A stretch of DNA of 40,820 bases. Origin: a virus. Positions 4,196 through 40,446 of the stretch are shown here, in pieces (position 1 is the first letter of the stretch; each line of letters starts with the position of its first letter). The position numbers and the translations under genes were made by a program. Location of the stretch: the IMG/VR virus record IMGVR_UViG_3300044980_000145, positions 1 through 40,820 of that record. One strand, 5' to 3'. A model generated the notes under the pieces. It worked only from the letters and a program-made list of their open reading frames with translations, was not told the origin of the DNA and did not search any database.

Positions 4196-4198
4196 CTC

Positions 4199-5128: not shown

Positions 5129-5131
5129 CCT

Positions 5132-13018: not shown

Positions 13019-13773
13019 CGTAGCTGCATAGCGCGTTTTCTGCCGTCAGCGGCTCGTTGTTTTTGTTCGGCTGTGCGTGCGAGGGCAACTTGTCGTATTT
13101 TCTCTCGCGTCTCATCTGTATGCTTGAATCCGCGCAATTTTAAGTTTGGTTTGCCTTTTTTACCTAAAGAAATATTCAAACACTCTTTCTCGGACTTTAC
13201 TCTTCCCTTACTGCTCGCGCTTATTTTGACTTTAGCTTCAGGAGTATGCGGTTTGCGCTTTTGTCCCTTTGTAGCGGCGGAAAACTTAATACGTTGTTCC
13301 GGCGTCCATGTATAATTTTTTCTTGCGTTTGCTCTTCTCTGCTCTGGCGTTAATTTGGATTTAACACCCTTCTTTGCCTTACTTATCTTTCTTCTACTTT
13401 CTTCAGAAAGAAGATGTCCTTTTTGCGCCTTAGACATCCTTTGGCGCGTCTCTGGTCGTGCTCTCCAGCCGAGGGTTCCTTCTCCGCCTTCAGTCGCATT
13501 AGTCAATGGACAGCCTTCTTGTCTAAAGAAAGCTATCCAATATTGTTCGGCTTGTTGCCAACAATAAAGCGGAATTTGTTGAACGACCCTGATCATCGGT
13601 TCGAGTTTGAGTTTCTTTAGTTTTCGTAGCCAACGAGCTCTATGCGTCTCATTGTTGTTCTTTTTGCGCTCCGATAAATGATCACGTCTACGAGTCTCTA
13701 AATCACCGGCCGTAAAACCAACATATCTAATGTCTCCGTTTCTAGGATCAACAAGAACATAAATCGTACCCAT
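12970..13773 (-). CDS. GIY-YIG homing endonuclease with NUMOD3 repeats
   Basis: Start taken at ATG 13773, because the GIY-YIG fold begins immediately ('MGTIYVLVDPRNGDIRYVGF'); an upstream in-frame ATG at 13812 adds 13 unrelated residues. Catalytic features: Y-V-L/Y-V-G strands (residues 4-18), an Arg-rich helix 'LETRRRDHL', the Glu of 'AEQYWIAFF' and the Asn in 'LTNATEGGEG'. Residues about 105-250 carry several NUMOD3-type helices ('SEESRRKISKAKKG', 'TPEAKVKISASSKG', 'TDETREKIRQ'). The gene is AT-rich relative to its flanks. A minus-strand TTGACA (13807-13812) and TAAGTT 16 bases further (13785-13790) could be its own promoter, overlapping the plus-strand site at 13800. Its end overlaps gene 12596-13018. 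Confidence 0.92.
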   Translation of the reverse strand: MGTIYVLVDPRNGDIRYVGFTAGDLETRRRDHLSERKKNNNETHRARWLRKLKKLKLEPMIRVVQQIPLYCWQQAEQYWIAFFRQEGCPLTNATEGGEGTLGWRARPETRQRMSKAQKGHLLSEESRRKISKAKKGVKSKLTPEQRRANARKNYTWTPEQRIKFSAATKGQKRKPHTPEAKVKISASSKGRVKSEKECLNISLGKKGKPNLKLRGFKHTDETREKIRQVALARTAEQKQRAADGRKRAMQLRQGETTAPGAGESEKE

Positions 13774-13799
13774 GATTGTCGCTAAACTTACGTAGAGAC

Positions 13800-13805
13800 T
13801 ATAAA
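13800..13805 (+). promoter_or_regulatory. TATAAA promoter-like site
   Basis: ACTATAAAATG lies 20 bases before the GTG at 13826. A TTGTCG hexamer (13776-13781) sits 18 bases upstream. It overlaps, on the other strand, a TTGACA that may serve the GIY-YIG gene, making this a compact divergent promoter. Confidence 0.45.
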
Positions 13806-13825
13806 ATGTCAACGGTAATTCTTCT

Positions 13826-15950: not shown

Positions 15951-16661
15951 ATGAAAGAGAAGACCTTCATACCGACGTATGTACCGAATCCTCAGCTGAC
16001 GCCGCACCCAGAGGAGAGACAGCAGAGGACGATCCTACCTGGGTCGCGCTTGGCCGTCATAGGCGTCTTCGTGGAGATCATTCGACGTCGCTTCGTGTTC
16101 CCGAATGCGCCTGAAGACTTTCAGTGGTACTGGAGAAAAGACACCGATAAGACGACGATCTTAGTTGAGAGCGCATTCTCGGAAGCGTCCACGGGTAAAA
16201 ATTTCAGGCCAGCAGTGATAGTAGATGCAGACGACCAGACTATCGGCAGAACAACGCTCGGAGACTTAGCGGGAAAAAACCTGCAGCGCGGACTAACTGG
16301 ATACTTCCATCTAGTTACTCTGCCGATAATGGTGGAGTGCATAGCGGCTACGCGCGGTGAGAGTTCGACTCTATCAGATACCGTCGGAATCTATCTTCAA
16401 GCGAGTAACCGCCTAATACAGGCAACATTTGGCCTACACGAGATGACGCCAATTACTATTGGGCGCACGCAACCCGCTAGTTCCGACAAGAACAAGTTCT
16501 TGACGCCGGTCACGTTCTCGATTCAGTCTGTGCTTCGCTATACAGAAGAGCCGAGTGCGCCGATAATGAGGGACATCGTCGCTAATATCGCGGCGTCGGG
16601 TGTTGAGCCAACAGAGTACCTAGAGGCTATTTCTCTTGGTCTGCCTTGTCCAGATAAGTGA
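15951..16661 (+). CDS. putative tail/neck virion protein, 236 aa
   Basis: A mixed alpha/beta protein with an N-terminal polar arm (1-25), 'LAVIGVFVEIIRRRF', 'GYFHLVTLPIMVECIAATRG', a helix 'TVGIYLQASNRLIQATFG' and 'PVTFSIQSVLRYTEEPS'. A strand-helix-strand layout with 'M-x-E-C' and a late 'I-Q-x-V' strand is compatible with a tail-terminator or neck protein placed just before the sheath, but I cannot name the family. The 3' end overlaps the end of the opposite-strand GIY-YIG gene by 35 bases, so the last 11 residues (EAISLGLPCPD) are shared sequence. Confidence 0.75.
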   Translation: MKEKTFIPTYVPNPQLTPHPEERQQRTILPGSRLAVIGVFVEIIRRRFVFPNAPEDFQWYWRKDTDKTTILVESAFSEASTGKNFRPAVIVDADDQTIGRTTLGDLAGKNLQRGLTGYFHLVTLPIMVECIAATRGESSTLSDTVGIYLQASNRLIQATFGLHEMTPITIGRTQPASSDKNKFLTPVTFSIQSVLRYTEEPSAPIMRDIVANIAASGVEPTEYLEAISLGLPCPDK

Positions 16662-17316
16662 AGATATAACCGCCGCACCGTCCTTTGCGTTTTATCGACG
16701 TCTGGACTGCGCCCGCTTTAAGCCCTAAAAATAAATCGGCCTCTCTTGGAGTCTCAAAGACGCATCCTGTATTGTCAATGACAGGACGTCCTCCGTTCGC
16801 CGTGGATATTTTCCGTCGCGTTTCTTTAGAAACGGTGTGCCCTCTTAAAGTTTGTTGAATTTTATTTCGAACTTCAGAAGGGCGTTTGCGTCCCGTTAAG
16901 CCGTTACCTTTGCCTTTTTTGCTACGACTTATCGCAGCACGATGTTCCGGTGAAAACGGTCTTCCTTTTCCGGCTGCACTTAACTTGGCTCTCGTTTCTT
17001 CAGTTGGGGAGAATCCCGAATGCCCTTCTCCACCATCCGTGCTGTTAACAAGATCTGCGCCTACGAAACGAAAATACGCGATGTAAAAACGTTCAGTCTC
17101 GTTAAGATGTTCTTCACTTTCGCATGTTTCAATAATATCTGACAAAGGCAACAAGCCATCTTTCTTCAAAGACTTTAACCAACAGGTCAAAGGTGTTCGC
17201 TTTTGAAGCGCGCTATTGCTCAAATGCCTGCTCAGTCGCTTGGAGAGGGTTGTCGTAGTCTTTCCAACATAGCGAAGTTGATTCGTATTTGGGTCGCTGA
17301 GTACGTAGATTATCAT
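16627..17316 (-). CDS. GIY-YIG homing endonuclease with NUMOD3 and NUMOD1-like tail
   Basis: Residues 1-90 form the GIY-YIG nuclease: 'IIYVLSDPNTNQLRYVGKT', the Arg/His helix 'LSKRLSRHLS', Glu in 'NETERFYIAYF' and Asn in 'LVNSTDGGEG'. Two NUMOD3-like helices follow ('TEETRAKLSAAGKG', 'SPEHRAAISRSKKG'), then 'RNKIQQTLRGHTVSKETRRK'. The last 50 residues ('GGRPVIDNTGCVFETPREAD' onward) match a NUMOD1-like helix-turn-helix. AT-rich like the other GIY-YIG genes. It lies between two virion genes, overlaps the end of the upstream one tail to tail, and begins 70 bases from the sheath start in the opposite direction. Confidence 0.92.
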   Translation of the reverse strand: MIIYVLSDPNTNQLRYVGKTTTTLSKRLSRHLSNSALQKRTPLTCWLKSLKKDGLLPLSDIIETCESEEHLNETERFYIAYFRFVGADLVNSTDGGEGHSGFSPTEETRAKLSAAGKGRPFSPEHRAAISRSKKGKGNGLTGRKRPSEVRNKIQQTLRGHTVSKETRRKISTANGGRPVIDNTGCVFETPREADLFLGLKAGAVQTSIKRKGRCGGYIFTYLDKADQEK

Positions 17317-17386: not shown

Positions 17387-19744
17387 ATGCCGATCAGACC
17401 GACAGTTTTGGTGTACGAGGACCAGGCGACGCAGACCATCACGCCAGATATCCCCGATTTAAATTGTTTGGTCGTTGGTCCCGCCTATCAAATTCTTGAT
17501 TATTTTCAACCGGGTAGTACTACTACCTACGCAGACAAAGCTAGCATACAACTATCTCAAACGTATGGCACACTATTCGGTAATCCTTCCACTGCAACGC
17601 CAACAGGTACGCCATATATAACAGTAGCAAGCCCTCCTGGAATTCTTCCGGGTGCGACTCTTGACGCTGCAACAGTTACTTTGTTTATGGATCAGGCTGA
17701 GGTGGTCATAGACCACGCGGCCACTGGCACCACGACCGCCTCGTCCAATGTCTTCACGTCCTCGGCTACTACATGGGCGACTGCTGGCGTAGACCAAGTT
17801 CTACCGGGCGATACTCTCATCGTTACTGACGGTACCAACGTCCTCACGGCGACTGTGTACCAGGTCACCAACAACACGAGCCTCCTCCTGACCTCGGACA
17901 TCCCGTCTTCGGGCTTTACGCCGGGTTCGGGACAGACCTACCGCATTGAGCGCAAGTTGCTCGATCAACAGGTCTCATCGAGCTTCTACACCGTGATGGG
18001 CAACGTCGTGAAGATCAACGGCAGCATCACGCTGCCGGTTCCTGGTCAGGGTAACAAACCCGTTGACTACGCGGTTCTGTACATGGCCTACACGGCCCTG
18101 CGTACGGACCTTACGCAGCTGAACACGGTCGCACAGGAATCTGACATCATCGCCAACGTTGGTCGCATCGACAGCCGTAACCCACTGGGTGCGGCTCTGT
18201 TCGTTGCTCTCCAGAACACGACGACGGTCGTGCAATACGTAGGCGTAACCTCAGACGACCTAGTCGGTCACACCGCGGTTCGCGATGCCATCTCGGCTCG
18301 AAGCGACGTCTACGCGATCGTTCCTCTGACAGCAGATGTATCCATCATCGAGATGTGGAACGTTGACTGTACCGAGCGGGCTATCCCCGACGAGACAAAC
18401 GGCTACCCGCAGAAGTTCCGGGTAGTTCTCGGCAGCTGCGCTCTTCCGCTGACGTCGACCATCGTCGCCCCCTCGGCTACTGGTGCGTCGTCGGTCGTAT
18501 CTAGCACGGCTCCCAGCTACATCACGCAAATCTCGTTGCCGAGCTTCCCGAGTCTCGTTACTAACAACGTTGTTCCTGGCGACTTCCTGGTCGTTACGCT
18601 TGACGCTGCTGGTACGTCCCGCAACGGGTCCTACCTAATTGCGGCTGTGCTGACTGCCACTACTCTAGAGGTGGATCCATCGACGCCGTTCCCCGCTGCT
18701 GAGACCGGCAACTTGTCGGCAGAGATCTTGGCGAGCAATGACAGTTCAGTTGTCATTGCCGTGACTGCTGTAACATCGGCAGTGACGTCTCAGTCGGCCA
18801 ATCTCTACCTGCAGCTGACTGACCCGAGCGGCACGTTCATCACGAGCGGTGTCACCGCGGGCGATATTCTGCAGATCCCGTCTGACCCGAACGCGACGAT
18901 CACCAGCTCGTCGGTGTTGACGAACTTGGTTGTAGCCTCGGTTCAGTCCAATCAGCGCCTCATGATCGTGAATAACGGTCAGGACCAGGCGGCTACTCAG
19001 AACGAGCTCCCGCACGGCGTTAAGCGCATCGGCGGGGCTCTCGTTAGTACCTCGACCATCAACTACCAGGTCATCCGAAATCTCTCGAAGGACCAGCAAG
19101 TTACTAACCTGGTCGCAGAAGCTCAGTCGTTCAACTCGAGCCGCACGATTCTCGTGTGGCCTGACAAGTGCGACGTGGCGGGTGTGACCAACGGCCTCGG
19201 CCAACCGGGCTACTACCTGTCGGCAGCCGTCGGCGGCATGACCGCGGGTCTACCTGCTCAGCAGGGCTTCACCAACCTGGGCATCGCCGGCATCAGCCAG
19301 ATCTACGACTCGAACGGCTACTTCAACGACACGGAGCTCACCAACCTGTCGAACGGCGGTCTGTACGTCATCGCGCAGGCCACTCCTCAGTCGCTGCCGT
19401 ACTGTGTCCACCAGCTGACGACCGACGTCCAGACGCTGCAGAGCGGCGAGTACTCCATTGTGAAGAACTTCGACTTCGTGTCGGTGTTCTTCCAGGAGAT
19501 CTTGCAGAGCTTCCTGGGCATCTACAACGTGACGCCGGATACTCTGACGCTCCTACAGAACGCTCTCAACACGGGCGGCGATTTGCTGAAGCTCAGGACG
19601 GTGGCGAAGATTGGCGCGCCCCTGCTCTCGTTCTCAGTGACGAGTGTCGCGGTGTCTACGGTCTCGCCAGACAGAGTCGTCGCCTACATGGCGGTTGGCC
19701 TGCCTGCGCCGCTGAACGTCATCGAACTCCACCTCGTGGCATAG
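17387..19744 (+). CDS. contractile tail sheath protein
   Basis: A 785-residue protein with the layout of Myoviridae-type sheath proteins. The N-terminus is 'MPIRPTVLVYEDQATQTITP' followed by 'NCLVVGPAYQIL'; a large variable middle (about 90-560) is Ser/Thr-rich. The conserved C-terminal fold is clear: 'PGYYLSAAVGGMTAGLPAQQ' (around 605-625), 'GFTNLGIAGISQIYDSNGYF', 'LSNGGLYVIAQATP', 'VKNFDFVSVFFQEILQSFLG' and the closing 'GLPAPLNVIELHLVA', the strand that completes the interlocking sheath mesh. The sheath contracts during infection to drive the tube through the host envelope. The gene has its own TATAAT box and ribosome-binding site, and uses more GC-rich codons in its second half than in its first 90 codons. 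Confidence 0.9.
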   Translation: MPIRPTVLVYEDQATQTITPDIPDLNCLVVGPAYQILDYFQPGSTTTYADKASIQLSQTYGTLFGNPSTATPTGTPYITVASPPGILPGATLDAATVTLFMDQAEVVIDHAATGTTTASSNVFTSSATTWATAGVDQVLPGDTLIVTDGTNVLTATVYQVTNNTSLLLTSDIPSSGFTPGSGQTYRIERKLLDQQVSSSFYTVMGNVVKINGSITLPVPGQGNKPVDYAVLYMAYTALRTDLTQLNTVAQESDIIANVGRIDSRNPLGAALFVALQNTTTVVQYVGVTSDDLVGHTAVRDAISARSDVYAIVPLTADVSIIEMWNVDCTERAIPDETNGYPQKFRVVLGSCALPLTSTIVAPSATGASSVVSSTAPSYITQISLPSFPSLVTNNVVPGDFLVVTLDAAGTSRNGSYLIAAVLTATTLEVDPSTPFPAAETGNLSAEILASNDSSVVIAVTAVTSAVTSQSANLYLQLTDPSGTFITSGVTAGDILQIPSDPNATITSSSVLTNLVVASVQSNQRLMIVNNGQDQAATQNELPHGVKRIGGALVSTSTINYQVIRNLSKDQQVTNLVAEAQSFNSSRTILVWPDKCDVAGVTNGLGQPGYYLSAAVGGMTAGLPAQQGFTNLGIAGISQIYDSNGYFNDTELTNLSNGGLYVIAQATPQSLPYCVHQLTTDVQTLQSGEYSIVKNFDFVSVFFQEILQSFLGIYNVTPDTLTLLQNALNTGGDLLKLRTVAKIGAPLLSFSVTSVAVSTVSPDRVVAYMAVGLPAPLNVIELHLVA

Positions 19745-20636: not shown

Positions 20637-21277
20637 GTATCGAGCACCTAAAGATCAAGAGCGCTAGTCTGGCTTCCGTAATTCCAGCGGCAGCAGGTCC
20701 GGCTATCGGCGGTCTGGCAGGCCGTGCCCTCGGTGCCAAATTTCTCGGTCCAGTCGGCGGCATCACTGGTGCAGAGCTCGGAACGGCTCTAGGCGGTACT
20801 ACCGGTGCGGTCGGCGGACAGATGATCAAGGAGCGTGTCGAGGATCTCGAGAACGCTGCTCAACAGCAGGCGATGCCGATGGGCGCGCCGTATGCCATTG
20901 ATTCGACGTCTGAAGACATTCCTGCGTGGGCGCTTCAAGGAGCACAGCTGCTGCGTCCGCATTTGAAAACTGCTGGTCCGATGGATTGGCTTTTGGGTGA
21001 GGTTCCTGGCGCGCCGATGGCCCAAGCAGCTATTGGTGCTGAACCCGGTCAGCGATTACCGGCTGCTGGTAAAGCTTTCGCAGGAATGGCGGGAGGTGGC
21101 GTCGGCGGAGCAGCTCTGGGGATGGGGGTGGGGATGGGACTAGAGAGGCTGTTACACATGAACCCCAACTATCAACTGCCGTTCCTTCACATGAAGCCGC
21201 ACGAGCTCTTGGGAGCACTGGGCGGTTCTATCGGAGCGACTAAGGGGTTCAGGCACATGGTGCCTGAACAGGGCTAG
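20633..21277 (+). CDS. glycine-zipper virion protein, 214 aa
   Basis: ATG 20633 overlaps the preceding TGA. Residues 10-65 form a glycine-zipper pair ('AAAGPAIGGLAGRALGAKFL', 'GGITGAELGTALGGTTGAVG'), followed by a coiled stretch, a 'SEDIPAWALQGAQLLRPHLK' segment (about 92-111), and a second Gly-rich hydrophobic hairpin (about 147-165 and 193-205). No named family. Like 13826 and 19755 it looks able to insert in a membrane, which would suit a protein released from the virion during genome entry. The stop overlaps the end of the opposite-strand GIY-YIG gene by 4 bases. Confidence 0.75.
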   Translation: MSIEHLKIKSASLASVIPAAAGPAIGGLAGRALGAKFLGPVGGITGAELGTALGGTTGAVGGQMIKERVEDLENAAQQQAMPMGAPYAIDSTSEDIPAWALQGAQLLRPHLKTAGPMDWLLGEVPGAPMAQAAIGAEPGQRLPAAGKAFAGMAGGGVGGAALGMGVGMGLERLLHMNPNYQLPFLHMKPHELLGALGGSIGATKGFRHMVPEQG

Positions 21278-22008
21278 AGGTACCGAAAATGTCGACCTTT
21301 AACGCGCTTTAAACGTCCCTTAATTACGGCATATACGGACGAGTACGAGCAGCCGGTTGCCCGTGCGGCCTCTTTAATAGAGGCGTAAACATTTCCTTGA
21401 TCGTCTACCACCGCCTTGTTATTTTTACGAACGAGAGGGAAATCCTCACCTTCATAACGAAGGCGTACGCCTTTCATAGCGAACAATCTTCCGTACAACA
21501 AATGATGTACGGACTTTCTGTCTAAATTATGCGCTCTGGCCGCTTCCGCCTGCGTATCAAAATGCGTTCCGTTATGATCTACAACGGGGCGACCACCTTG
21601 GCGTCGCGAATTAGCGATTCGCGCATCCAGCGTCGTGTCAATTCGCCGGTGAATCTGTTTCATGCGAACCTTAGTTTCGTCGTTGTGACGAAACCCTATC
21701 GACCCTTCACCACCGTTAGTGGCATTTAACAACTCCCCGCCAGCGGCGCGAATAGATGAAATATGAAACATTTCGGCCGCGCTCAAACGGCCGGGATCGG
21801 CTTGGATTTCGATCGCCGCCACAATTACAGACAGTCGATTACGCTGTAAATGTTTCAACCAGTTATTTTTTCGTGTGGATGGCGCTTTAGCGCTAGTAGC
21901 CTCGCGTATGTGCCTTGATACCCGACGATCCAAGCATTCGACCGTTCTACCCACATATTTAATCGTGTCGGTCCTTGGGTCTATGAGAGCGTATACAACG
22001 CTCTTCAT
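21274..22008 (-). CDS. GIY-YIG homing endonuclease with two NUMOD1-like domains
   Basis: Start set at ATG 22008, where the nuclease fold begins ('MKSVVYALIDPRTDTIKYVG'); an in-frame ATG at 22059 would add 17 residues unrelated to the family. Nuclease features: 'VVYALIDP', 'IKYVGRTVECLDRRVSRHI', Glu in 'AAEMFHISSI' and Asn in 'LLNATNGGEG'. Unlike the other three it has few NUMOD3 helices and instead two NUMOD1-like helix-turn-helix units: 'RPVVDHNGTHFDTQAEAARA' (about 137) and 'KAVVDDQGNVYASIKEAARA' (about 192). It is AT-richer than the flanking virion genes and abuts the end of gene 20633-21277. Confidence 0.92.
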   Translation of the reverse strand: MKSVVYALIDPRTDTIKYVGRTVECLDRRVSRHIREATSAKAPSTRKNNWLKHLQRNRLSVIVAAIEIQADPGRLSAAEMFHISSIRAAGGELLNATNGGEGSIGFRHNDETKVRMKQIHRRIDTTLDARIANSRRQGGRPVVDHNGTHFDTQAEAARAHNLDRKSVHHLLYGRLFAMKGVRLRYEGEDFPLVRKNNKAVVDDQGNVYASIKEAARATGCSYSSVYAVIKGRLKRVKGRHFRYL

Positions 22009-22067
22009 GTCTTTGTCTTCTTGGTTTAAGTAGGCGATACCGTAAGTTGTTCTTCGCATATAGGCGC

Positions 22068-26821: not shown

Positions 26822-27238
26822 ATGCAGAACACAATCGACACCATTCTTCTGACAGTTCTCAAGGACGTAGTTCTTCCGCTGGTGACTCTCGCGCTCACCT
26901 GGGCCTCCGCAAAGCTACCAGTGTGGATTACGGCGCACATCAAGAATGCAAAGATCGCTGGCATCATGACGCGACTCGAGCAGCTTGCCATGAGTGTCGT
27001 CCAAGAGATGGACCAAACGGTCATCCAGTCACTGGGCAATAACCCAACCGTCGAGCAGCTGAAGGCCGCACGGGACGCGGCTCTTGCTACACTCAAGTCT
27101 CATCTTGGAACCAACGGTATCCAAGAGATCGAGCAGGTTCTCGGCCTAGAGAACGAAGACGCGGTTATTAAACTCCTTATTACATTCATTGAATCGAACG
27201 TGCATTCTCTCAAACTAGTTGCTAAGGTGCCGGCATGA
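26822..27238 (+). CDS. holin, LLH-like single-TM type
   Basis: A 138-residue protein with one hydrophobic segment near the N-terminus (residues about 8-31, 'ILLTVLKDVVLPLVTLALTW') and a long charged, largely helical C-terminal part ('AKIAGIMTRLEQLAMSVVQE', 'TVEQLKAARDAALATLKSHL'). This layout matches phage holins of the LLH family, which form inner-membrane lesions at the lysis time. The next two genes encode lipoproteins, which supports a lysis cassette. GAAGGA precedes ATG 26822 and the stop overlaps the next ATG (ATGA). Lysis function is inferred; other small membrane proteins could look alike. Confidence 0.7.
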   Translation: MQNTIDTILLTVLKDVVLPLVTLALTWASAKLPVWITAHIKNAKIAGIMTRLEQLAMSVVQEMDQTVIQSLGNNPTVEQLKAARDAALATLKSHLGTNGIQEIEQVLGLENEDAVIKLLITFIESNVHSLKLVAKVPA

Positions 27239-27687
27239 TCAAAAACATCTCTGTTGTTCTTCTCGCTGCGGCTCTCGCGAGCTGCTCTCTTCTTAAGGCT
27301 GACGCGAAGGTGATGTCAGGCGCTTTTGTTGCCTGCGCTAAGGCGGACCTTGCGGCAGAGGTGGCAAACCTGCCATCGCAGGTTATCTCGGATATCGAAC
27401 TTGGCGGTGCAACCCTCATTGAGGGTCTGCTCTCTGACGTAAGCGCTCTTATTGCGGCGGACTTGCCGTCGCTAGAAGCGGACTTGACGAGTATCGCCGC
27501 TCAAGTAGGCCTTGACGCCGTTGACTGTGCGATCGCGGCAGTCGACGCTGTTATGAAGGGTACGGGCAGCGGGAGCGGCAGTGCCTCGACTACCGCTATG
27601 CCGCGCTTGATGACTGCTAGTGCAGCCCACGGCGTCGCCCGCGCCAAGGCGTGGTCGGTCAATGCGCACAAGATGGCGCACAAGTGA
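27235..27687 (+). CDS. lipoprotein, possible outer-membrane spanin subunit
   Basis: Begins MIKNISVVLLAAALASC: a short basic end, a hydrophobic helix and a lipobox L-A-S-C with Cys17 as the lipidation site, so it should be secreted and anchored to the outer membrane. The mature part (residues 18-150) is Ala/Leu/Asp-rich helix, then a Gly/Ser linker and a basic, His-containing tail ('ARAKAWSVNAHKMAHK'). This fits an outer-membrane spanin (o-spanin), although it is longer than usual and no inner-membrane partner is embedded in it. It is coupled to the holin (ATGA) and to the next lipoprotein (GTGA). Confidence 0.72.
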   Translation: MIKNISVVLLAAALASCSLLKADAKVMSGAFVACAKADLAAEVANLPSQVISDIELGGATLIEGLLSDVSALIAADLPSLEADLTSIAAQVGLDAVDCAIAAVDAVMKGTGSGSGSASTTAMPRLMTASAAHGVARAKAWSVNAHKMAHK

Positions 27688-27929
27688 AGAGTCTCGCAAT
27701 AGCGGCAGCACTGCTATGCGGGTGTGCCACGGTACACCAGCACCCGTTTGCTACGGCTCTTGCGGGTAATGCTGCGCTAACGGTTGGCGCAGGTGTGTGC
27801 GCTATCGAGTGCGGCGGCGACGTTCGTCGCGCGGCGGACGGCGTACTGATCGGTGAGCTTGCTCTAGCATCTGCTCTAACGGGTATCGTTATCGAAGTTG
27901 TTGCGGCATACGCAGCTGAAAAACACTAG
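27684..27929 (+). CDS. second lipoprotein, possible spanin partner, 81 aa
   Basis: The start is GTG 27684, overlapping the TGA of the previous gene; an in-frame GTG or ATG further upstream (27651) would only prepend sequence from the other frame. The protein starts MKSLAIAAALLCGC, a signal peptide with lipobox L-C-G-C and Cys14 as lipid site. The mature part is short and Ala/Gly/Val-rich with a hydrophobic C-terminal helix ('ALASALTGIVIEVVAAYAA'), which could be a second membrane contact. Two consecutive lipoproteins after a holin are unusual; one may be an o-spanin and the other an unassigned envelope protein. Confidence 0.7.
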   Translation: MKSLAIAAALLCGCATVHQHPFATALAGNAALTVGAGVCAIECGGDVRRAADGVLIGELALASALTGIVIEVVAAYAAEKH

Positions 27930-28689: not shown

Positions 28690-29298
28690 ATGTCTGCGCG
28701 CATTGATCTAACAGGGCAGAAATATGGCTTATTGGTCGTTATTGAACGATTGCCTGCGTCTAAATGGCGTTGTCAGTGCACCTGCGGGTGCGGAAAAATA
28801 ATTGTAGTAGCGGGCAACAATCTTAAGAGCGGAAACACTCGTTCATGTGGTTCTCTACAAAAGAAAGCAGTAGCAAAGCGTAATACTACGCACGGTTTAT
28901 CTAAAACGCCTACATATCAGATATGGAAAGGTATCAAAAATCGCTGCCTTAACCAGAACGATATGGATTATCATCACTATGGTGGTCGCGGCATCACGCT
29001 ATGTGACAGATGGGCAACTTCTTTTGAGGCCTTTCTAGAAGAAATGGGCGCCCGTCCCGCAAACCATTCGATTGATCGGATCGATGTTAACGGTAATTAC
29101 GAACCGTCTAATTGTCAGTGGGCAACACAATCAACACAAGTGCGCAATCGCCGCAACGCAAAACTTTCTATCAGGGACGTGGAATTGATTCGTTCTCTGG
29201 CAGGTCTCGCATCACACAACGCCCTAGCTAAACAATTCGGCGTAGCCAAATCTATGATCTACAGTATTCTCCGCGGCAAAACTTGGAAAACTGAGTGA
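28690..29298 (+). CDS. HNH (His-Me finger) homing endonuclease with HTH tail
   Basis: Residues 20-60 form a Cys-rich zinc-type module ('WRCQCTCGCGK', 'NTRSCGSLQKK'). Residues about 66-155 follow the phage HNH pattern: 'HGLSKTPTYQIWKGIKNRCL', 'YHHYGGRGITLCDRWATSFE', 'EEMGARPANHSIDRIDVNG' and 'NYEPSNCQWATQSTQVRNRR', with D129-R130 and N141/C142 as likely active-site positions. The last 45 residues are a helix-turn-helix ('SHNALAKQFGVAKSMIYSIL'). It begins 8 bases after the lysis-block gene without a clear Shine-Dalgarno and is AT-rich. It lies just before a TATAAT site and the next virion gene. Confidence 0.9.
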   Translation: MSARIDLTGQKYGLLVVIERLPASKWRCQCTCGCGKIIVVAGNNLKSGNTRSCGSLQKKAVAKRNTTHGLSKTPTYQIWKGIKNRCLNQNDMDYHHYGGRGITLCDRWATSFEAFLEEMGARPANHSIDRIDVNGNYEPSNCQWATQSTQVRNRRNAKLSIRDVELIRSLAGLASHNALAKQFGVAKSMIYSILRGKTWKTE

Positions 29299-31581: not shown

Positions 31582-32535
31582 TTACTGAGGTTCTCTCGAC
31601 TTCCAGCGTTTCTTTCCAGCCGCGCTTAACTTCTGTCGCGTGTCTTCAGAATATCCGCGCGTTTTTTTAGTCGCGCTAATCTTGGCGCGCGATGTCGCGG
31701 ATTGCGAATGCCCAGGTTTACCTTTCTTCGACGCGCTGATTTTATTTCGCACTTCTTGCGAAAGCGTTTTTCCTTTGTGCGCTGAGCTTACTACTTGACG
31801 CATTTCTAAGGATTGGTTGCGCACGAGAAGTATTTCTCGTATTTTCTTAAGTTGCTCATCTGTGCGCTTAACCCCCGTCAGCGCCGCGCTAATCTTAGAA
31901 CGCGTCTTTTCTGTGAGCTGCTTACCCGTATTAACAATACGTAAGCGTTCTCGTTGTTCTATAGATATCTTCTTCCCTTTGTTCGCGTCGCTAATCTTGG
32001 CGCGAGTGCCCGCGGTATGTTTCCTGCCTTGCTGCGCTTTACTCATCGCAAGACGAGCGGCGTCTGACGCGCGCCGTCCTGTGTTTGCGACGCGCAACTT
32101 TTCTCGCGTATCAACAGAAATTTGTTTACCTTTATGGGCTGCACTGATCTTTGCTCGGCGTTCGGGCGTATGTTGCTGCATTTTTGCAGCGGCTGACATT
32201 TTCTTTCGCGATTCTTCCGTATGTTTGCCGCCCAAAAATCCATCGCCGCCCTCTGTACCGTTAACCAACGAACATCCTATTGATTTGAAATACTGGATCC
32301 AGTAACGCTCCGCTTCTCGGAGATCTGTTGCCACTAGTGATTGAACAGAAAGAATGTATGGTATGCGATCCTGGCGTTTTAGTGCTTTGATCCAATTAGT
32401 TCTATGGTTTGTTTGTTTATCATTACAATGACTTATTAGTCGACGAGACAGTGAAGTTGTTGTGTACCCAACATATCTGATTTCCCACTCCTCTGGGTCA
32501 ATCAACACATAAACGGTTCCTGCTTGTATTTTCAT
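31582..32535 (-). CDS. GIY-YIG homing endonuclease with a long NUMOD3 array
   Basis: A 317-residue member with nuclease residues 1-95 ('GTVYVLIDPEEWEIRYVGYT', 'LSRRLISHC', Glu in 'EAERYWIQYF', Asn in 'LVNGTEGGDG') and about nine NUMOD3-type helices in the remainder ('TEESRKKMSAAAK', 'TPERRAKISAAHKGK', 'TAGTRAKISDANKGK', 'SIEQRERLRIVNTGK', 'SQEVRNKISASKKGK' and others). Its ATG overlaps the stop of the upstream minus-strand biotinyl-domain gene (ATGA), so, unlike the others, it is translationally coupled into the minus-strand operon. It is AT-rich, and lies at the convergence point of the two strands. Confidence 0.92.
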   Translation of the reverse strand: MKIQAGTVYVLIDPEEWEIRYVGYTTTSLSRRLISHCNDKQTNHRTNWIKALKRQDRIPYILSVQSLVATDLREAERYWIQYFKSIGCSLVNGTEGGDGFLGGKHTEESRKKMSAAAKMQQHTPERRAKISAAHKGKQISVDTREKLRVANTGRRASDAARLAMSKAQQGRKHTAGTRAKISDANKGKKISIEQRERLRIVNTGKQLTEKTRSKISAALTGVKRTDEQLKKIREILLVRNQSLEMRQVVSSAHKGKTLSQEVRNKISASKKGKPGHSQSATSRAKISATKKTRGYSEDTRQKLSAAGKKRWKSREPQ

Positions 32536-32753
32536 TCACCGGTCTCAATGATTGCTACAGGATCATCCGCTTGTACGCTTGTTCCTGCAGAAGCCAACCA
32601 TATAATTTTCCCGTTATCCGTGCTTTCGATAGTAAGCTCTAACTTCATAGATTCTTGAATAAGTAAGACCTCGCCTATAGATACTTTTTGACCAACGCTC
32701 ATCATCTGAAGCCAAATGCTACCTGCACACGGGGCTTTCACGGTGATTTTCAC
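32532..32753 (-). CDS. biotinyl/lipoyl carrier domain protein (BCCP-like), 73 aa
   Basis: The whole gene is one biotinyl-type domain: 'ITVKAPCAGSIWLQMMSVGQ', then 'KVSIGEVLLIQESMKLELTI', 'GKIIWLASAGTSVQADDPVA' and a terminal 'IIETGE'. Lys37 lies in E-S-M-K-L, equivalent to the biotinylated lysine of EAMKM carriers, 36 residues before the C-terminus, exactly where biotin carboxyl carrier proteins place it. The paired glycine turns (A-G near 10-11, S-A-G near 54-56) also fit. The role in a phage is unknown: it may be a structural beta-sandwich, an attachment handle or a decoy for host biotin ligase. GTG start overlaps the previous stop (TAGTG). Confidence 0.82.
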   Translation of the reverse strand: MKITVKAPCAGSIWLQMMSVGQKVSIGEVLLIQESMKLELTIESTDNGKIIWLASAGTSVQADDPVAIIETGE

Positions 32754-33214
32754 TAGAACACGCTACCTCTTATATATATCCTGGTCGCCTTCGTCGGTGC
32801 TGTTCCTGTGTTAGTGACAGCTACGCGTACCCAGCGGCCGAAGATTACAAAAAACGCTTTACCTGTCGGTCCCTGTTTTGTGGGGTCATACACATGCCTT
32901 AGCGCCTCGGCATCGTAGTGGAGAGCTGGCATGGTCTCATCTGTGATATAATTACCCTGCTCGTCAACCTCATCGTTCGAGAAACTAGCTACGATGAGCA
33001 ACGGCTGATCACAAAAGAAGCTCCCAAAGAAGCGCGTGAACGAGATTCCATCGTGATACCCTACGACCATCTTTCCTGGTTCGATTGGTTCTCTGAACCG
33101 GTTCAACTCAGAGAATTTCGGCTGACTATGAAAGAGTTTGCCGTCGGGTGGCGCAGGTTGAACCCACGCCATCACGGTAGCATTTACCACCTTAGGGTAA
33201 TGCGTTAAAGGCAT
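32753..33214 (-). CDS. beta-rich virion/appendage protein, 153 aa
   Basis: An all-beta-looking protein with 'VNATVMAWVQPAPPDGKLFH', 'FTRFFGSFFCDQPLLIVASF', 'KAFFVIFGRWVRVAVTNTGT' and a terminal 'RIYIRGSVF' strand. It has no signal or membrane segment. AAAAGG precedes ATG 33214 on the minus strand, and its stop overlaps the next start. It lies between another beta protein and the biotinyl-domain gene, so the trio may be a secondary virion module expressed from the minus-strand promoter at 34158. No family recognised. Confidence 0.72.
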   Translation of the reverse strand: MPLTHYPKVVNATVMAWVQPAPPDGKLFHSQPKFSELNRFREPIEPGKMVVGYHDGISFTRFFGSFFCDQPLLIVASFSNDEVDEQGNYITDETMPALHYDAEALRHVYDPTKQGPTGKAFFVIFGRWVRVAVTNTGTAPTKATRIYIRGSVF

Positions 33215-33240: not shown

Positions 33241-33567
33241 TCACTCGCAGGGTTGAAGTTCATCTTCAGTAGGCGGCGGAATCGCCGGGTCTTTATACGA
33301 CAACTGAAGAGCTACCACGACAAACGACGTTCTACCAGTCTGCGTCTTATACCAAAACCCATTGATACACACACGGTCATCTAGCGATGTTCCACACGCT
33401 ATGTCTACCCAATTCTCTCGATCAAAGGATATCCAGAGAACGTTCGTTCCCGTATTACGGAGCGAGATCTGTCGCGTAGCGACATCAAACTTATGATACT
33501 TAATCTGCGCTCGAGCGACGAGATCGGCCGGCATAGGCCGGCCAGTATCCGCGTGCTCAGCGGCCAC
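33241..33567 (-). CDS. beta-rich probable virion protein, 108 aa
   Basis: Residues 20-95 include 'ATRQISLRNTGTNVLWISFD', 'RENWVDIACGTSLDDRVC' and 'GFWYKTQTGRTSFVVVALQL', typical of a small beta-sandwich similar to tail or decoration proteins. The C-terminus is Pro/Glu-rich. The start is GTG 33567, with ATG 33534 as alternative; between them a strong inverted repeat (GGCCGGC 33526-33532 with GCCGGCC 33537-33543) would form a hairpin around the second start. It starts 5 bases after the end of the upstream gene. Confidence 0.68.
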   Translation of the reverse strand: MAAEHADTGRPMPADLVARAQIKYHKFDVATRQISLRNTGTNVLWISFDRENWVDIACGTSLDDRVCINGFWYKTQTGRTSFVVVALQLSYKDPAIPPPTEDELQPCE

Positions 33568-33572
33568 TTAAC

Positions 33573-34100
33573 TCAGCCGATGATCGTCCACGCGCTCGCG
33601 CCCGTTTTGAGCAGAGCAACGTGACCGTTATTCGAACTGATTACGTCGTTCGCGCCGCCGTTGATCGTGCCAGACGATGCAACCGTGATCGTGATGTGGT
33701 TGGTACCCGCATCACCCTTAGCATCAACGACATGGACTTCTTGACCGATCGGAGCAGCCGCAGACAGCACAACCGACACAGCGCCGGCCGACGTCAAGTT
33801 TGTCAAGATGATCTGATCGCCAGCCACCGCATCATACGGCGTCACAAGGACAGTCGTAATGTGACTCGGAATCTGATCCGACTCAAAGGCGGGATCAACC
33901 GAGGTCGACCACGTAAGGTTTCCAGCGGTCGCCTGTGCCTGCAGGGTAGGCTCCAAAGAAGCCAGCGTCTGCAACATGACGTAGACGTTAGAAACCGAAC
34001 CGCTCGCAGGAACGCGGAGGACAAGGCCACCGTACTCGCCGGTCTTCTCTTGGAGAGCGAGCACTTCCGATGTTAGATTATTTACAGTGAGAAGGGGCAT
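33573..34100 (-). CDS. tail-fibre/appendage domain protein, 175 aa
   Basis: The last 75 residues match a beta domain frequent at the tips of tail fibres: 'PIGQEVHVVDAKGDAGTNHI', 'TITVASSGTINGGANDVISS', 'NNGHVALLKTGASAWTIIG'. The N-terminal 100 residues are Ser/Thr/Ala-rich with 'GGLVLRVPASGSVSNVYVML'. The first gene of a minus-strand operon of three beta proteins and the biotinyl domain; its own promoter-like TATACT lies 53 bases upstream, and AGGAGA precedes ATG 34100. An appendage role is inferred from the C-terminal pattern. Confidence 0.78.
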   Translation of the reverse strand: MPLLTVNNLTSEVLALQEKTGEYGGLVLRVPASGSVSNVYVMLQTLASLEPTLQAQATAGNLTWSTSVDPAFESDQIPSHITTVLVTPYDAVAGDQIILTNLTSAGAVSVVLSAAAPIGQEVHVVDAKGDAGTNHITITVASSGTINGGANDVISSNNGHVALLKTGASAWTIIG

Positions 34101-34161: not shown

Positions 34162-35085
34162 TCAAACTGTCAGAGGAAGTTTAGCTACTGTCTGTGGGCC
34201 GCACTTGCCATCTGCCGTAAGTCCTTGGCTATATTGGAACTGACGCAACGCTGCATCCGTTCCTTGTCCGTGGACGCCGTCTACAGACACCTTTAGGCGC
34301 TGCTGCAGACCTTCTACATCTGGGCCCCTCATAGGAGGAACCGTGAGCTGTAGAATGCGCGTCGGCGGCCAGGAAGGCGTTGGGAGGGGTTGAGGCCACG
34401 CTGAGCCACCCGTTATAACGTCGTCCCCATAGTCGTGACAAACGAGGTTGATCTGTGGGTTACGGCTCTTATAGCCGCGCCAATCCATCCCATGTGTCTT
34501 TATTGTGTACTGCGCCGCGCCGAACCCCTGGTTATGACAAAGCGCTAGGTACGCGCGCATGGTGCCTGCTGGCCACAATGTGCCGTTTGTATCGATGTAA
34601 GAAGGATCAGGTTCTGACGCGTCCAAGAATCCTGGAGAGTTCGCGGGCAGGGCTGCCATGAAGGCGCGCATATCGGAGCGGTGCTTCTCCGCCAACTGCA
34701 CCATACAGTCAGTAGCCTTCTGCAGATCCAGAAGGTCTACAGGAGAGATACCAAACTCCTGTCCTTCTTCTTGGCTAATTTGATAGAGGCCGATCGATAC
34801 AAAACCTGTTGGATCGCTTTGCGTAGCCACCTCAGTGTCTATTTCGTTAGTAACACCGGCTTCGTGCATCGCCGTGCCTACAAAATATCGCGGGTCAATG
34901 TTGTGCATGTTCAAGCGCGTCTGCGATATCGCTACTGCGTCTATGACTTGCTGCCCCGTAACGTATATGCCATCTGCACGCCTGTTCTGTGTGGGTGGTT
35001 GTCCATCCCGCGCATATTCCTCTAGGCGAAGAGGTAGTACGTTACTCGGCCACTGTTGAACGTGTGTAGGAAATACCATCGCCAT
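34162..35085 (-). CDS. endolysin: lysozyme/transglycosylase with peptidoglycan-binding domain
   Basis: Two modules. Residues about 45-175 look like an SLT/lysozyme fold: 'ISQTRLNMHNIDPRYFVGTA', the likely catalytic Glu75 in 'AMHEAG', and 'SIGLYQISQEEG' (97-108) as the G-L-Y-Q-I motif of transglycosylases. Residues about 248-300 are a peptidoglycan-binding-1 domain ('GPDVEGLQQRLKVSVDGVHG', 'TDAALRQFQYSQGLTADGKC', 'GPQTVAKL'). No signal peptide or transmembrane segment, so release would depend on the holin on the plus strand about 7 kb away. Could instead be a virion-associated lysin, since it lies next to appendage genes. Start ATG 35085; second ATG two codons on. Confidence 0.85.
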   Translation of the reverse strand: MAMVFPTHVQQWPSNVLPLRLEEYARDGQPPTQNRRADGIYVTGQQVIDAVAISQTRLNMHNIDPRYFVGTAMHEAGVTNEIDTEVATQSDPTGFVSIGLYQISQEEGQEFGISPVDLLDLQKATDCMVQLAEKHRSDMRAFMAALPANSPGFLDASEPDPSYIDTNGTLWPAGTMRAYLALCHNQGFGAAQYTIKTHGMDWRGYKSRNPQINLVCHDYGDDVITGGSAWPQPLPTPSWPPTRILQLTVPPMRGPDVEGLQQRLKVSVDGVHGQGTDAALRQFQYSQGLTADGKCGPQTVAKLPLTV

Positions 35086-35091
35086 ACTATC

Positions 35092-35283
35092 TCACTTTGT
35101 CTTGGTGTTGCAGCACGGGCAGATCTCGTCGTCATCTTCGATCAAGCTATACCCACAGCAGGTGCACGCCTTCATCGTTGGATAACGATACTCCTCTTCT
35201 AATACATGCGCGATGCGTGCAACCTTGTTCACAAGTTCCTGGAGTACGCTAGTTAGTTGTTCAACGTCTTTCTTGTCGATCAA
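35092..35283 (-). CDS. small double-CxxCC zinc-ribbon protein, 63 aa
   Basis: TTG start at 35283, overlapping the TGA of the upstream gene (TTGA), preceded by AGGGACC. Residues 1-35 are a helix with leucine heptads ('EQLTSVLQELVNKVARIAHV'). The zinc ribbon is C40-x-C42-C43 ('CTCCGYSL') and C55-x-C57-C58 ('CPCCNTKTK'). Such short coiled-coil plus ribbon proteins are common in large phages, usually of unknown role. It lies between the HAD enzyme and the endolysin in the same operon. Confidence 0.7.
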   Translation of the reverse strand: MIDKKDVEQLTSVLQELVNKVARIAHVLEEEYRYPTMKACTCCGYSLIEDDDEICPCCNTKTK

Positions 35284-35834
35284 AGGTGGTCCCTAACCAT
35301 TGATACCAGGTTAGGCCAGTTTGACACTACAACTCCGCTCCATTTATCGTTCTTGTTATAGCTCCGCTGAAACAGAATCGCTGTGCCTAGCGGATTGTGC
35401 TCTTGCCACTTCACTAGCGTGGACGTCTTGTCGTCTACTAAGACGTCGCCTGTAACGATGTGCTTATCGATACAGTGAACTATGTTCTTGCGCGCGAAGC
35501 CAAAGTTTTTGAGCCACGCTTCGCGCTCAGACATCCAGTACTTACTGTCAAAAGGAGCGGTGACTGCGTACACGTCACCAAAATCACGAAGCCTATGAAC
35601 GCCCTCAGCGGCGCCCGGGAACGCTTGTATCGCAGCGCAGAATCCGGGTTCGACTGTAGAGTCGTAGATCTCTTTGCACGTTTTAGCGTCGAACCCAAGG
35701 CTCTCGAGCACGTCCCACTTAGAGACATCGTCTGGTTGAAACCTCTTCCCTGTCCGCTCATATACTCGGTCCAAAAGAGCCTGGACATACTGGGCCATCA
35801 CGCCATCACAATCTAAAAGGATTCTCGGTCTCAT
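35280..35834 (-). CDS. HAD-family 5'(3')-deoxyribonucleotidase-like enzyme
   Basis: Start taken at ATG 35834, where a GAGGAGAAC ribosome-binding site lies 6 bases upstream and the fold begins (M-R-P-R-I-L-L-D-C-D-G). Motif I is D8-x-D10-G-V; motif II includes the Thr in 'YAVTAPFDSKYW'; motifs III/IV include 'GDVLVDDKTSTLV' with the Asp pair. Length of 184 residues fits the NT5C family that dephosphorylates deoxyribonucleoside monophosphates, so it may adjust nucleotide pools for phage DNA synthesis. Substrate is not established. A 6-bp inverted repeat sits over its ribosome-binding site. Confidence 0.82.
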   Translation of the reverse strand: MRPRILLDCDGVMAQYVQALLDRVYERTGKRFQPDDVSKWDVLESLGFDAKTCKEIYDSTVEPGFCAAIQAFPGAAEGVHRLRDFGDVYAVTAPFDSKYWMSEREAWLKNFGFARKNIVHCIDKHIVTGDVLVDDKTSTLVKWQEHNPLGTAILFQRSYNKNDKWSGVVVSNWPNLVSMVRDHL

Positions 35835-35842
35835 GTTTTGTT

Positions 35843-35857
35843 CTCCTCGGAGAGGAG
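35843..35857. promoter_or_regulatory. inverted repeat over the ribosome-binding site of the HAD gene
   Basis: CTCCTC (35843-35848) and GAGGAG (35852-35857) form a perfect 6-bp stem with a 3-base loop. On the minus strand GAGGAG of this stem is the ribosome-binding site for ATG 35834, so the hairpin could limit translation. Symmetry alone could also be accidental at a purine-rich site. Confidence 0.45.
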
Positions 35858-35890
35858 ACGTTATTGCGCACAATGCAGACGTTGTCGAGC

Positions 35891-37874: not shown

Positions 37875-39152
37875 CTACTTACTGAACCTATCTTCTATCG
37901 CGGCTTGAAAACAGATCTCTTGGAAGACTGCGGCACTAACCTTGTCGTGCTTCTGAGCCATAATTCGCGCCTTATTCTCGTCTCCCAAAATTCTGGTAGC
38001 CAGCTTCACGCGGCCTTCTGAAGAGAGGGGGAGAAACTCGATGCTCTTATCGATACGGCCAGGACGATTTATCAGGGCGTCGTCTAAGGTATTCACATGA
38101 TTAGTCGTCAAAACTAACAACACCCCATCACACTTTTGAACGCCATCTATACAATTCAGAAGGCAGTCAAACGTAAGCGAAGAACTTGAGGTATCTGAAG
38201 CTACGTTAGTACGCCCATGGAATACCGCATCTACGTCTTCGATGAGAGCTATGCAAGGAGTGTCATTGGCCATGAGCTCCCACGCGTGTCTGAACTCATA
38301 GTTAGACATAGAGGCAAGGTCAAACACGTGTACCGGGATTCGTAATTTTTCTGCTAGCGCACGTGTGAAGCTCGTTTTCCCTGTTCCCGGTTCACCGTGG
38401 AACACATACCCTCTTCGCCAGGGGATGCCGCACTTCTCGTACCACTTTCTAGACGCGTGCCAGAAGGCTGCTTCTTCCATCAAGGCCTCTAGAGAAGCGT
38501 CGAGAGAAAGCTGTTCGGCCGGTGGAGAAGGGGGGGACATTCTTAGATCCTCTTGTCGCCAACCTAGGAGTCTGATGCACGTGCCGAATGAGTCTGCGGT
38601 ACTTCCTCCTCCGTTTCTTCGCCTCTTATACGGGGGCGGTTGCATTTCTTCTGAACCACTAGTTCCTCTGGTGGATTCGTGCATTACTACGTTGAATCTC
38701 GTAGTCTCTTCGTTGCCAGCCTTGTTAACACGTTCAAGGGCTTCTAGGATCAACTTCTCCCATTTAACAGTCCCTCGAAAAAAGGAGAACTGACACGAAT
38801 ATTCTGTCAGAGAGGAGTTCATCTCACTATCCGGGATAGACTTAGAGGAGTACCACATCGGTCTCAGCCTTCGCCAGAAAATTTGTCGGGAGCCTGTCAG
38901 TACCTGAACGCCGACCATGGCGGTTTTCTCGAGTGGTATGATGTGGCGAAATTCCGCGCTATACGCTTCTCCTGGAACCTGGAGACGCTTAGAGGTGGCA
39001 TTTAGGTGCGCCAGTACTATCGTGCCGAGTAGATTGTTCGTATTCTTGGTGATGATTATCCAGCCCGTCAACCATTCTGCTATTGAGCGGGCTCGGCTCC
39101 ACAGAACGGCAACGAGCGTCATGGCGCCCGCGATGATTTCCCAGGTAGGCAT
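37875..39152 (-). CDS. BCS1-like AAA+ ATPase
   Basis: Residues 1-35 carry a hydrophobic segment ('IIAGAMTLVAVLW') like the N-terminal membrane anchor of BCS1. A beta domain follows (about 60-140). The AAA+ domain starts near 225: 'AAFWHASRKWYEKCGIPWRR', Walker A 253-260 (GEPGTGKT), Walker B 301-308 (IALIEDVD), the Thr-Thr-Asn sensor at 349-351, and 'DDALINRPGRIDKSIEF' with R363 and R366 as arginine-finger candidates. BCS1 proteins translocate folded proteins across mitochondrial membranes; bacterial relatives are mostly uncharacterised. Here it could act on a membrane-linked virion or host protein. The exact family fit is strong but the function in a phage is unknown. Confidence 0.8.
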   Translation of the reverse strand: MPTWEIIAGAMTLVAVLWSRARSIAEWLTGWIIITKNTNNLLGTIVLAHLNATSKRLQVPGEAYSAEFRHIIPLEKTAMVGVQVLTGSRQIFWRRLRPMWYSSKSIPDSEMNSSLTEYSCQFSFFRGTVKWEKLILEALERVNKAGNEETTRFNVVMHESTRGTSGSEEMQPPPYKRRRNGGGSTADSFGTCIRLLGWRQEDLRMSPPSPPAEQLSLDASLEALMEEAAFWHASRKWYEKCGIPWRRGYVFHGEPGTGKTSFTRALAEKLRIPVHVFDLASMSNYEFRHAWELMANDTPCIALIEDVDAVFHGRTNVASDTSSSSLTFDCLLNCIDGVQKCDGVLLVLTTNHVNTLDDALINRPGRIDKSIEFLPLSSEGRVKLATRILGDENKARIMAQKHDKVSAAVFQEICFQAAIEDRFSK

Positions 39153-39193: not shown

Positions 39194-39415
39194 TTACGTG
39201 TCGAGTGACGCGACAGCGATCTCGTCTGTTTCTTGTGCCACGAGAAAGGCGAGTTTATAGAACGATGGTAGCGTCAAACTCGACGGCTGCTGTGCTCGCA
39301 GATTACTTACGATGTTAGATGCAACGAGCATGGCGACGTCTTGTCCGGTCGGTGGCACGATTTGAATCGTGCTACTCGGTTTGACGTCTTTATTGAGATA
39401 CGGACCCTGCGCCAT
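39194..39415 (-). CDS. small hypothetical protein, 73 aa
   Basis: MAQGPYLNKDVKPSSTIQIV leads into 'GQDVAMLVASNIVSNLRAQQ' and a helix 'SFYKLAFLVAQETDEIAVA'. It is soluble, without cysteines, and not recognised. AAGAGGTACCC lies upstream of ATG 39415. It sits between the zinc-ribbon gene at 39431 and the BCS1-like ATPase, 41 bases before the latter, and is probably co-transcribed. Confidence 0.65.
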   Translation of the reverse strand: MAQGPYLNKDVKPSSTIQIVPPTGQDVAMLVASNIVSNLRAQQPSSLTLPSFYKLAFLVAQETDEIAVASLDT

Positions 39416-39430
39416 GTTTAAGGGTACCTC

Positions 39431-39646
39431 TTATGTGTCCTTCTTCCAATAGAGCTCGCCATCAACAACTTCGATGTCATCTGCGGTCCTCGTCTTTGGA
39501 ACGACATAGCCTAGCTCTTTAAGGCATGAAACGCACAGTAGTGAATAAGCGTGAGGAGTACCAGGTACTTTATACAGCCGCTTGTCCATGCACTTATTGT
39601 CACAGGTACCTAGAGCAACGTAAACGGGACGCGGAACATCGGCCAT
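39431..39646 (-). CDS. small zinc-binding protein, 71 aa
   Basis: Two Cys pairs form a likely zinc site: C15-x3-C19 ('CDNKCMDK') and C38-x2-C41 ('LLCVSCLKELG'). The remaining sequence is a compact beta-type scaffold with 'YKVPGTPHAYSLLC'. AGAGGTGGC precedes ATG 39646. One of five small zinc-ribbon proteins in this window. Function unknown. Confidence 0.68.
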   Translation of the reverse strand: MADVPRPVYVALGTCDNKCMDKRLYKVPGTPHAYSLLCVSCLKELGYVVPKTRTADDIEVVDGELYWKKDT

Positions 39647-39669: not shown

Positions 39670-40446
39670 TCATCGCGATCCGCCACCCGATGACATTGCA
39701 CCCTGCTGAACTGGACCAGAACCTACTACCGCCGACGTGTCCCCTTTACCGGGAGCTAGCCGGGGTTCCTTCCGAAGGTCTCTGGCGTTCATAACAAAGT
39801 CTGACGCGGCTTTTGCCAGGGCACTGGCGCCAGTCAGTGGAATTTCATGATGATCTCTTGCGGCAACGTGAAGCTTATCGATCATGAACTTATGCGCCAA
39901 CACTGGAAGATTATCGACCCGACCGCCGTGCTCGAGATAGCCTAGTGTTACGTGAGACACAAACCCGTGGTGGTCAGACGGACTAATGCCGTTATCTTGT
40001 AGGGCTCTAGCGGCGTCTACATGAATCTTCTGAAGACCCGGAGCGTCTACGAGCGCGACCAACGCCGTTCGCTTCTTGCCGCCTTTATCTAAAGCATCAA
40101 AGAAGGCCCAGCCCTGTAACCGCGCCGATATGGGTTCAGAAGACGCGCCGATTTCTGTAAGGCTTTCTAAGGCTCCGTGTGTTTTTTCAGGGTCGTGTTC
40201 GCTGCCGCTTGCTGGACTAGACGTATGCACGATCGTTACGTGATCAATGTCCGGATGGCGGGCTGCGTCAGGAATCAACTTAGCCTGAAGTTCACGTAGC
40301 GGCGCAGCTACGTGTTCAGGTAGTCGCGTGTAGACAAAAAATGTCCTTGGACCTGTCTTTATCTCTGCGACTTTCGTCGCAGCCCACGGCCTATCAGGGG
40401 CGCCCTCTATAGAGGCAGCAGCGTCAAAAAAAGAGGCGTGGGCCAC
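39670..40446 (-). CDS. 2H phosphoesterase (LigT/Acb1-like fold)
   Basis: GTG start at 40446. Two H-x-T motifs define the fold: H69-V-T71 in 'DHVTIVHTS' and H165-V-T167 in 'SHVTLGYLEHG', about 96 residues apart, as in LigT-type 2H phosphoesterases. The intervening sequence contains the expected 'FFVYTRLP' and 'RTALVALVDAPGLQKIHVDA' strands. Family members cut cyclic or 2'-5' phosphodiesters; phage versions include Acb1, which destroys CBASS cyclic nucleotides, and RNA-repair enzymes. The C-terminal 60 residues are polar and not part of the fold. Which substrate this one uses is not visible from sequence. Confidence 0.8.
   Translation of the reverse strand: MAHASFFDAAASIEGAPDRPWAATKVAEIKTGPRTFFVYTRLPEHVAAPLRELQAKLIPDAARHPDIDHVTIVHTSSPASGSEHDPEKTHGALESLTEIGASSEPISARLQGWAFFDALDKGGKKRTALVALVDAPGLQKIHVDAARALQDNGISPSDHHGFVSHVTLGYLEHGGRVDNLPVLAHKFMIDKLHVAARDHHEIPLTGASALAKAASDFVMNARDLRKEPRLAPGKGDTSAVVGSGPVQQGAMSSGGGSR

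Follow-up and report, generated by a model that had tools for sequence, protein, structure and literature searches.

A free-standing biotinyl carrier domain encoded in a conserved gene cassette of a tailed phage

Biotinyl carrier domains and the phage that encodes one

The biotinyl carrier is the protein domain on which bacteria hold the vitamin biotin. The closest described systems to the phage gene analyzed here are BLAP/YngHB of B. subtilis (PDB 1z6h) and the other 70–75-aa bacterial carriers of the PRK08225 and PRK05889 types, which like the phage product are free-standing single biotinyl domains, and which adjoin carboxylase genes, including in the yngHB region (PMC4016012). In vitro, BirA attaches biotin to B. 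subtilis BLAP (PMC4016012); hence, an acceptor of such a size suffices for biotinylation. When expressed in E. coli BLAP was reported to be lipoylated, but the enzymes of B. subtilis were later found not to lipoylate it (PMC4016012). In E. coli, the biotin operon comes under BirA repression when no unbiotinylated acceptor is left (PMC4016012). The same fold of about 70 residues is found in BCCP domains, such as those of P. horikoshii (5gua and 2ejf, the latter being the BCCP chain of a structure solved in complex with its BPL) and of E. coli AccB (1bdo). Small stand-alone proteins of this superfamily are also present in two giant viruses, Edafosvirus (A0A3G4ZUT5) and Hyperionvirus (A0A3G5A815), but these are eukaryotic viruses, and their proteins are annotated as lipoyl rather than biotinyl and are only 18–21% identical to the phage carrier. 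They are its only matches in BFVD below E 0.001, with none from a tailed phage, and nothing relevant on a phage-encoded BCCP was found in the open-access literature.

The window, i.e., the whole stretch of 40,820 nucleotides analyzed here, is a linear IMG/VR fragment and is part of a large tailed phage, a myovirus of about 188 kb. For its tail-sheath-like protein, alignments were obtained with structural proteins from Salmonella phage Arash (181 kb) and Vibrio phage D181 (187 kb), and this protein places the phage among myovirus-like relatives of ~170–198 kb. A search with this protein retrieved 48 viral contigs, the closest being G001 (187,862 bp) and G002 (145,212 bp), whose gene order matches that of the window over much of the latter. 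These two represent a single sister lineage, having an identical carrier gene and 99.995% identity over the 20 kb compared. Two neighboring genes of the window (39194–39415 and 39431–39646) have their counterparts at the two ends of G001 (624 and 185441); because of this gene order and of a short terminal repeat, G001 is probably near-complete. The features discussed in the text are the following.

17387–19744, plus strand: tail-sheath-like structural protein, aligned with structural proteins of myovirus-like relatives
31582–32535, minus strand: GIY-YIG/NUMOD3 homing endonuclease by profile matches, adjoining the carrier gene downstream
32532–32753, minus strand: stand-alone biotinyl carrier domain, 73 aa, GTG start
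32753–33214, minus strand: 153-aa protein directly upstream of the carrier, with a homologue 59–60% identical upstream of the G001 carrier
33241–33567, minus strand: 108-aa protein, cassette member, 60% identical in G001
33573–34100, minus strand: baseplate-like protein, 175 aa, first gene of the cassette, with phrog_20556 and HVTV-1 matches
34162–35085, minus strand: endolysin with a peptidoglycan-binding domain, by profile matches

Several other genes of the window have recognizable features. On the plus strand, 3236–6100 contains three tandem glycine-rich paralogues of about 310–320 aa, the first with weak tail-fibre/minor tail matches, and 6104–9778 codes for a 1224-aa protein in which an imperfectly repeated unit of ~20 residues (ISE-V-xPxDxVxR) recurs about fifty times and which may form a fibre-like rod; its G001 homologue is 44% identical over 781 aa. 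Two short ORFs in 27235–27929 (plus) look lipoprotein-like by eye; this would be consistent with spanin-like proteins and with an outer membrane in the host. On the minus strand there are an NT5C-type 5'-deoxynucleotidase (35280–35873; PF06941, E 9.6e-21; G001 homologue 35% identical), an AAA ATPase that presumably resembles the BCS1 family (37875–39152; PHROG 7485, E 6.4e-41; not found in G001), and a member of the 2'-5' RNA ligase/2H phosphoesterase superfamily (39670–40446; PF13563, E 1.3e-9; 54% identical in G001).

Domain type and acceptor lysine

The ORF codes for a genuine free-standing, phage-encoded biotinyl carrier domain with a modifiable lysine, confirming the reading of a complete BCCP-type domain made in the preliminary description. 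The Pfam Biotin_lipoyl profile (PF00364), proposed there as a check, matches residues 5–69 over profile positions 3–73 of 73 (E 1.3e-11), with 44.5 bits for a gathering score of 22.1. The other proposed check, structure prediction, gives a lipoyl-type barrel: the AlphaFold2 model built with 39 homologues has a pLDDT of 96.6, and K37 lies in it at the tip of a β-hairpin between strands 29–35 and 38–43. Its best match in the PDB is the BCCP 5gua (TM 0.90, Z 14.2, rmsd 1.1), the lysine positions being identical, and the best Foldseek/VIA matches are BCCPs, including the 2ejf chain. Unlike BCCP proteins, the phage carrier has neither an N-terminal docking region nor an associated enzyme.

The acceptor-type lysine, K37, lies in the motif E34-S-M-K-L-E39, which follows the biotinyl pattern E-x-M-K-[ML]-x. 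Length, the E-S-M-K motif, and the spacing after the lysine are shared with BLAP-type carriers. The latter spacing is 36 residues in the phage and 34–36 residues in 69 of the 80 closest bacterial homologues (range 33–47), so the distance to the C-terminus had correctly been called family-typical. The acceptor lysine was part of the motif used to collect these homologues, and conservation of the motif among them is therefore by construction. The phage carrier departs from the BLAP type in having Leu instead of Met at K+1 (MKL), in being less than 50% identical to any sampled bacterial carrier, and in missing the NCBIfam equivalog cut-offs of both PRK08225 (34 vs 95 bits) and PRK05889 (32.6 vs 75 bits).

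From its sequence, the domain is best classed as a carrier of biotin, not of lipoate. The highest-ranking NCBIfam models are those of biotin enzymes (urea carboxylase, 6e-11; OadA, 6.5e-10), followed by the BCCP-type PRK08225 (E 2e-8), whereas the best lipoyl E2 model reaches merely 0.0026, and the residue preceding the lysine is Met, not Asp. That the protein is instead lipoylated is thus very improbable, even though the two domains belong to one superfamily and BLAP was itself once reported lipoylated in E. coli; against this stands the later finding that the B. subtilis enzymes do not lipoylate it.

The conserved cassette and its distribution among phages

The carrier gene is tightly packed between its neighbors. 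Its GTG overlaps the stop codon of the 153-aa gene by one base (TAGTG), giving stop/start coupling of the two, and its 3' end overlaps the next gene via ATGA. The carrier and the 153-aa protein might have formed a fusion, but this was rejected, since each phage has stop codons between them. What is conserved is a cassette of four genes (34100–32532) coding for the baseplate-like protein, two further proteins, and the carrier. Its limits follow from the comparison with G001. The endolysin, on the same strand as the cassette in the window, is inverted relative to it in G001 and was rejected as a member, and the GIY-YIG gene, absent from the corresponding place in G001, is a mobile insertion outside the conserved system. 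This ORF is one of four on the minus strand that look GIY-YIG-like (12970–13812, 16627–17316, 21274–22059, and 31582–32535), located at or close to gene ends, inside the plus-strand structural cluster or next to it; 31582–32535, the one for which the family was searched, gave the GIY-YIG and NUMOD3 profile matches. Two more ORFs, 1475–2335 and 28690–29298, are possibly HNH-type by eye, the second without a clear Pfam match.

The neighbors of the carrier had been described as β-rich virion proteins, which stands in part. The first protein of the cassette matches baseplate families (phrog_20556, E 1.2e-8; the match with an HVTV-1 baseplate protein is weak), and is 175 aa long in the window and 301 aa in G001. 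The 108-aa and 153-aa proteins have no family match in Pfam and PHROG profile searches. The latter is all-β in a low-confidence model (pLDDT 53), with which a Foldseek run gave no readable result, and is possibly a β-rich virion protein on the strength of that model. The downstream neighbor is a homing endonuclease and not a virion protein.

The preliminary description had proposed a search for the same gene in related phages. A carrier is indeed present at the corresponding place in G001 and G002 (18113–18352). It is 33% identical to the window carrier and was detected by the whole-domain profile, not by the motif (PF00364, E 2.9e-10, 40.3 bits); since it is syntenic and significant, the domain match in the window is not due to chance. 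It keeps E-x-M-K-x-E, as ECMKME with the canonical MKM. Hence, neither of the observations named beforehand as contrary to the reading, a predicted structure lacking a lipoyl-type barrel or the loss of the lysine among homologues, has been made. The carrier has diverged faster than its cassette neighbors (33% vs 59–60% identity between window and G001), which fits both a decoy and a protein under relaxed constraint. In a tree of 40 domains the two phage carriers pair together, with a support of 83 that is not decisive given the long branches, and no bacterial donor is indicated. The carrier gene has 43.7% GC in the window, vs 50–57% in the three upstream cassette genes, but it is not similarly AT-rich in G001, so a foreign origin is unsupported.

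Outside these two lineages the gene was not found. Among 2.9 million IMG/VR contigs the carrier was found only in the window phage and in G001/G002; scans with the carrier, 153-aa, and 108-aa genes retrieved these two contigs and, in addition, only L177. This 26.7-kb viral contig, in which an EAMKME ORF resembling the C-terminal end of a host carboxylase subunit lies beside a Mu-like transposase, was read as a prophage flank and rejected. No carrier reaches the family cut-off in other relatives (38 records searched); the 153-aa gene was found in G001 and G002 only (14 records searched), and the 108-aa gene in G001 only (23 records searched). Single-protein scans of viral contigs with the carrier, the 153-aa gene, and the AAA gene gave no match, and no PHROG family matches the carrier (E up to 1). 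Seven tblastn matches in the phage collection were set aside as probable host sequence: one is annotated as a bacterial oxaloacetate decarboxylase, and six are in unannotated records, several of only 3–6 kb. Also set aside were PF00364 matches within proteins of roughly 600–1800 aa in the relatives, which fall below the cut-off and cover 16–21 positions only; these are perhaps the barrel-sandwich hybrid of an RNA polymerase subunit.

Possible roles of the carrier

Genes for partner enzymes sharply distinguish bacterial from phage loci. Among the 80 nearest bacterial carriers, 65 have a carboxyltransferase or biotin carboxylase match in the locus, some of these being carrier domains within larger carboxylases, and plasmid-borne stand-alone carriers also adjoin such genes. 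Searches at E 0.01 for BPL_LplA_LipB, Carboxyl_trans (PF01039), CPSase_L_D2 (PF02786), HMGL-like (PF00682), and Biotin_carb_C (PF02785) matched nothing in the window, in G001, or in G002, but gave matches in 12–14 of 14 control genomes. The absence of an accompanying carboxylase gene noted earlier thus holds for both the window and the near-complete sister genome, and in none of the three contigs were the partner genes expected of a carboxylase BCCP subunit detected in the genome or operon, although such partners may be supplied by the host. With neither a ligase nor a carboxylase partner detected in the phage, the carrier would act through host proteins, and it probably takes its biotin from the infected cell.

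The explanation we favor, with a probability of about 0.4 as a whole, is that of a BLAP-like acceptor, biotinylated by the host, produced late and abundantly, and acting as a sink for host biotinoyl-AMP/BPL. The carrier would fold as a BCCP barrel and present Lys37 at the hairpin tip to the host BPL, which would biotinylate it; modification by the host ligase is, in our analysis, quite likely. Because the first gene of the cassette is baseplate-like (phrog_20556), the cassette is probably expressed late and in abundance, and the carrier, at its end, would then be made in quantity late in infection. As a sink for biotinoyl-AMP/BPL it would relieve the BPL-mediated repression of biotin synthesis, compete with host BCCP for biotinylation, or both. 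Derepression requires a regulatory (group II) ligase in the host. The sink role itself is tentative and only weakly favored over its close rivals, a virion part and a subunit of a host carboxylase. Four observations count against the explanation: the carrier has diverged faster than its cassette neighbors, although a decoy might do so too; a virion role would account at least equally well for the tie to a baseplate-like cassette; K+1 is Leu; and the gene was found in two distinct phage lineages only.

The carrier may alternatively be a biotinylated component of the virion, assembled with the baseplate-like and other cassette proteins and carrying biotin or contributing just its domain. This would agree with a one-strand conserved cassette whose first gene matches baseplate families, with the coupling to the 153-aa gene, and with the conservation of the cassette as a unit in two lineages while it was not found in relatives. 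It is rather doubtful, as the carrier has no attachment or oligomerization region beyond the bare domain, two of its three cassette neighbors are only putative virion proteins, and it evolves much faster than these would-be partners. A specific form of it, a naturally biotinylated tailed-phage particle in which a host-ligase-modified domain sits with the cassette proteins within the baseplate or fibre region, is unlikely. Host enzymes can work with ferredoxins and thioredoxins of phage origin, and by analogy the carrier may be an auxiliary metabolic protein that replaces or supplements the BCCP subunit in an acyl-CoA carboxylase of the host. Bacterial stand-alone carriers of equal length do adjoin carboxylase genes, and the fold is identical to that of carboxylase BCCP domains, but the absence of detectable carboxylase subunits in the phages, the location in a baseplate-type cassette, and the low identity to bacterial carriers make this role rather doubtful too. 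Finally, the domain may serve a purely structural purpose and stay unmodified, like other domains with the barrel-sandwich hybrid fold. The cassette context and the fast evolution of the domain are compatible with this, and unmodified examples exist in HlyD/EmrA adaptors and phage RNA polymerases (weak matches). This use is disfavored because the sister lineage retains the lysine within a canonical MKM; both phage carriers keep E-x-M-K-x-E at 33% identity, and the profile matches are with biotin-enzyme families, so that we regard it as improbable.

The known stand-alone biotin acceptors are bacterial and lie beside carboxylases, and our searches found no other tailed phage with one. A phage having a biotin acceptor but no detected biotin enzyme would represent either a new route by which host biotin metabolism is tapped or hijacked, or a naturally biotinylated virus particle.
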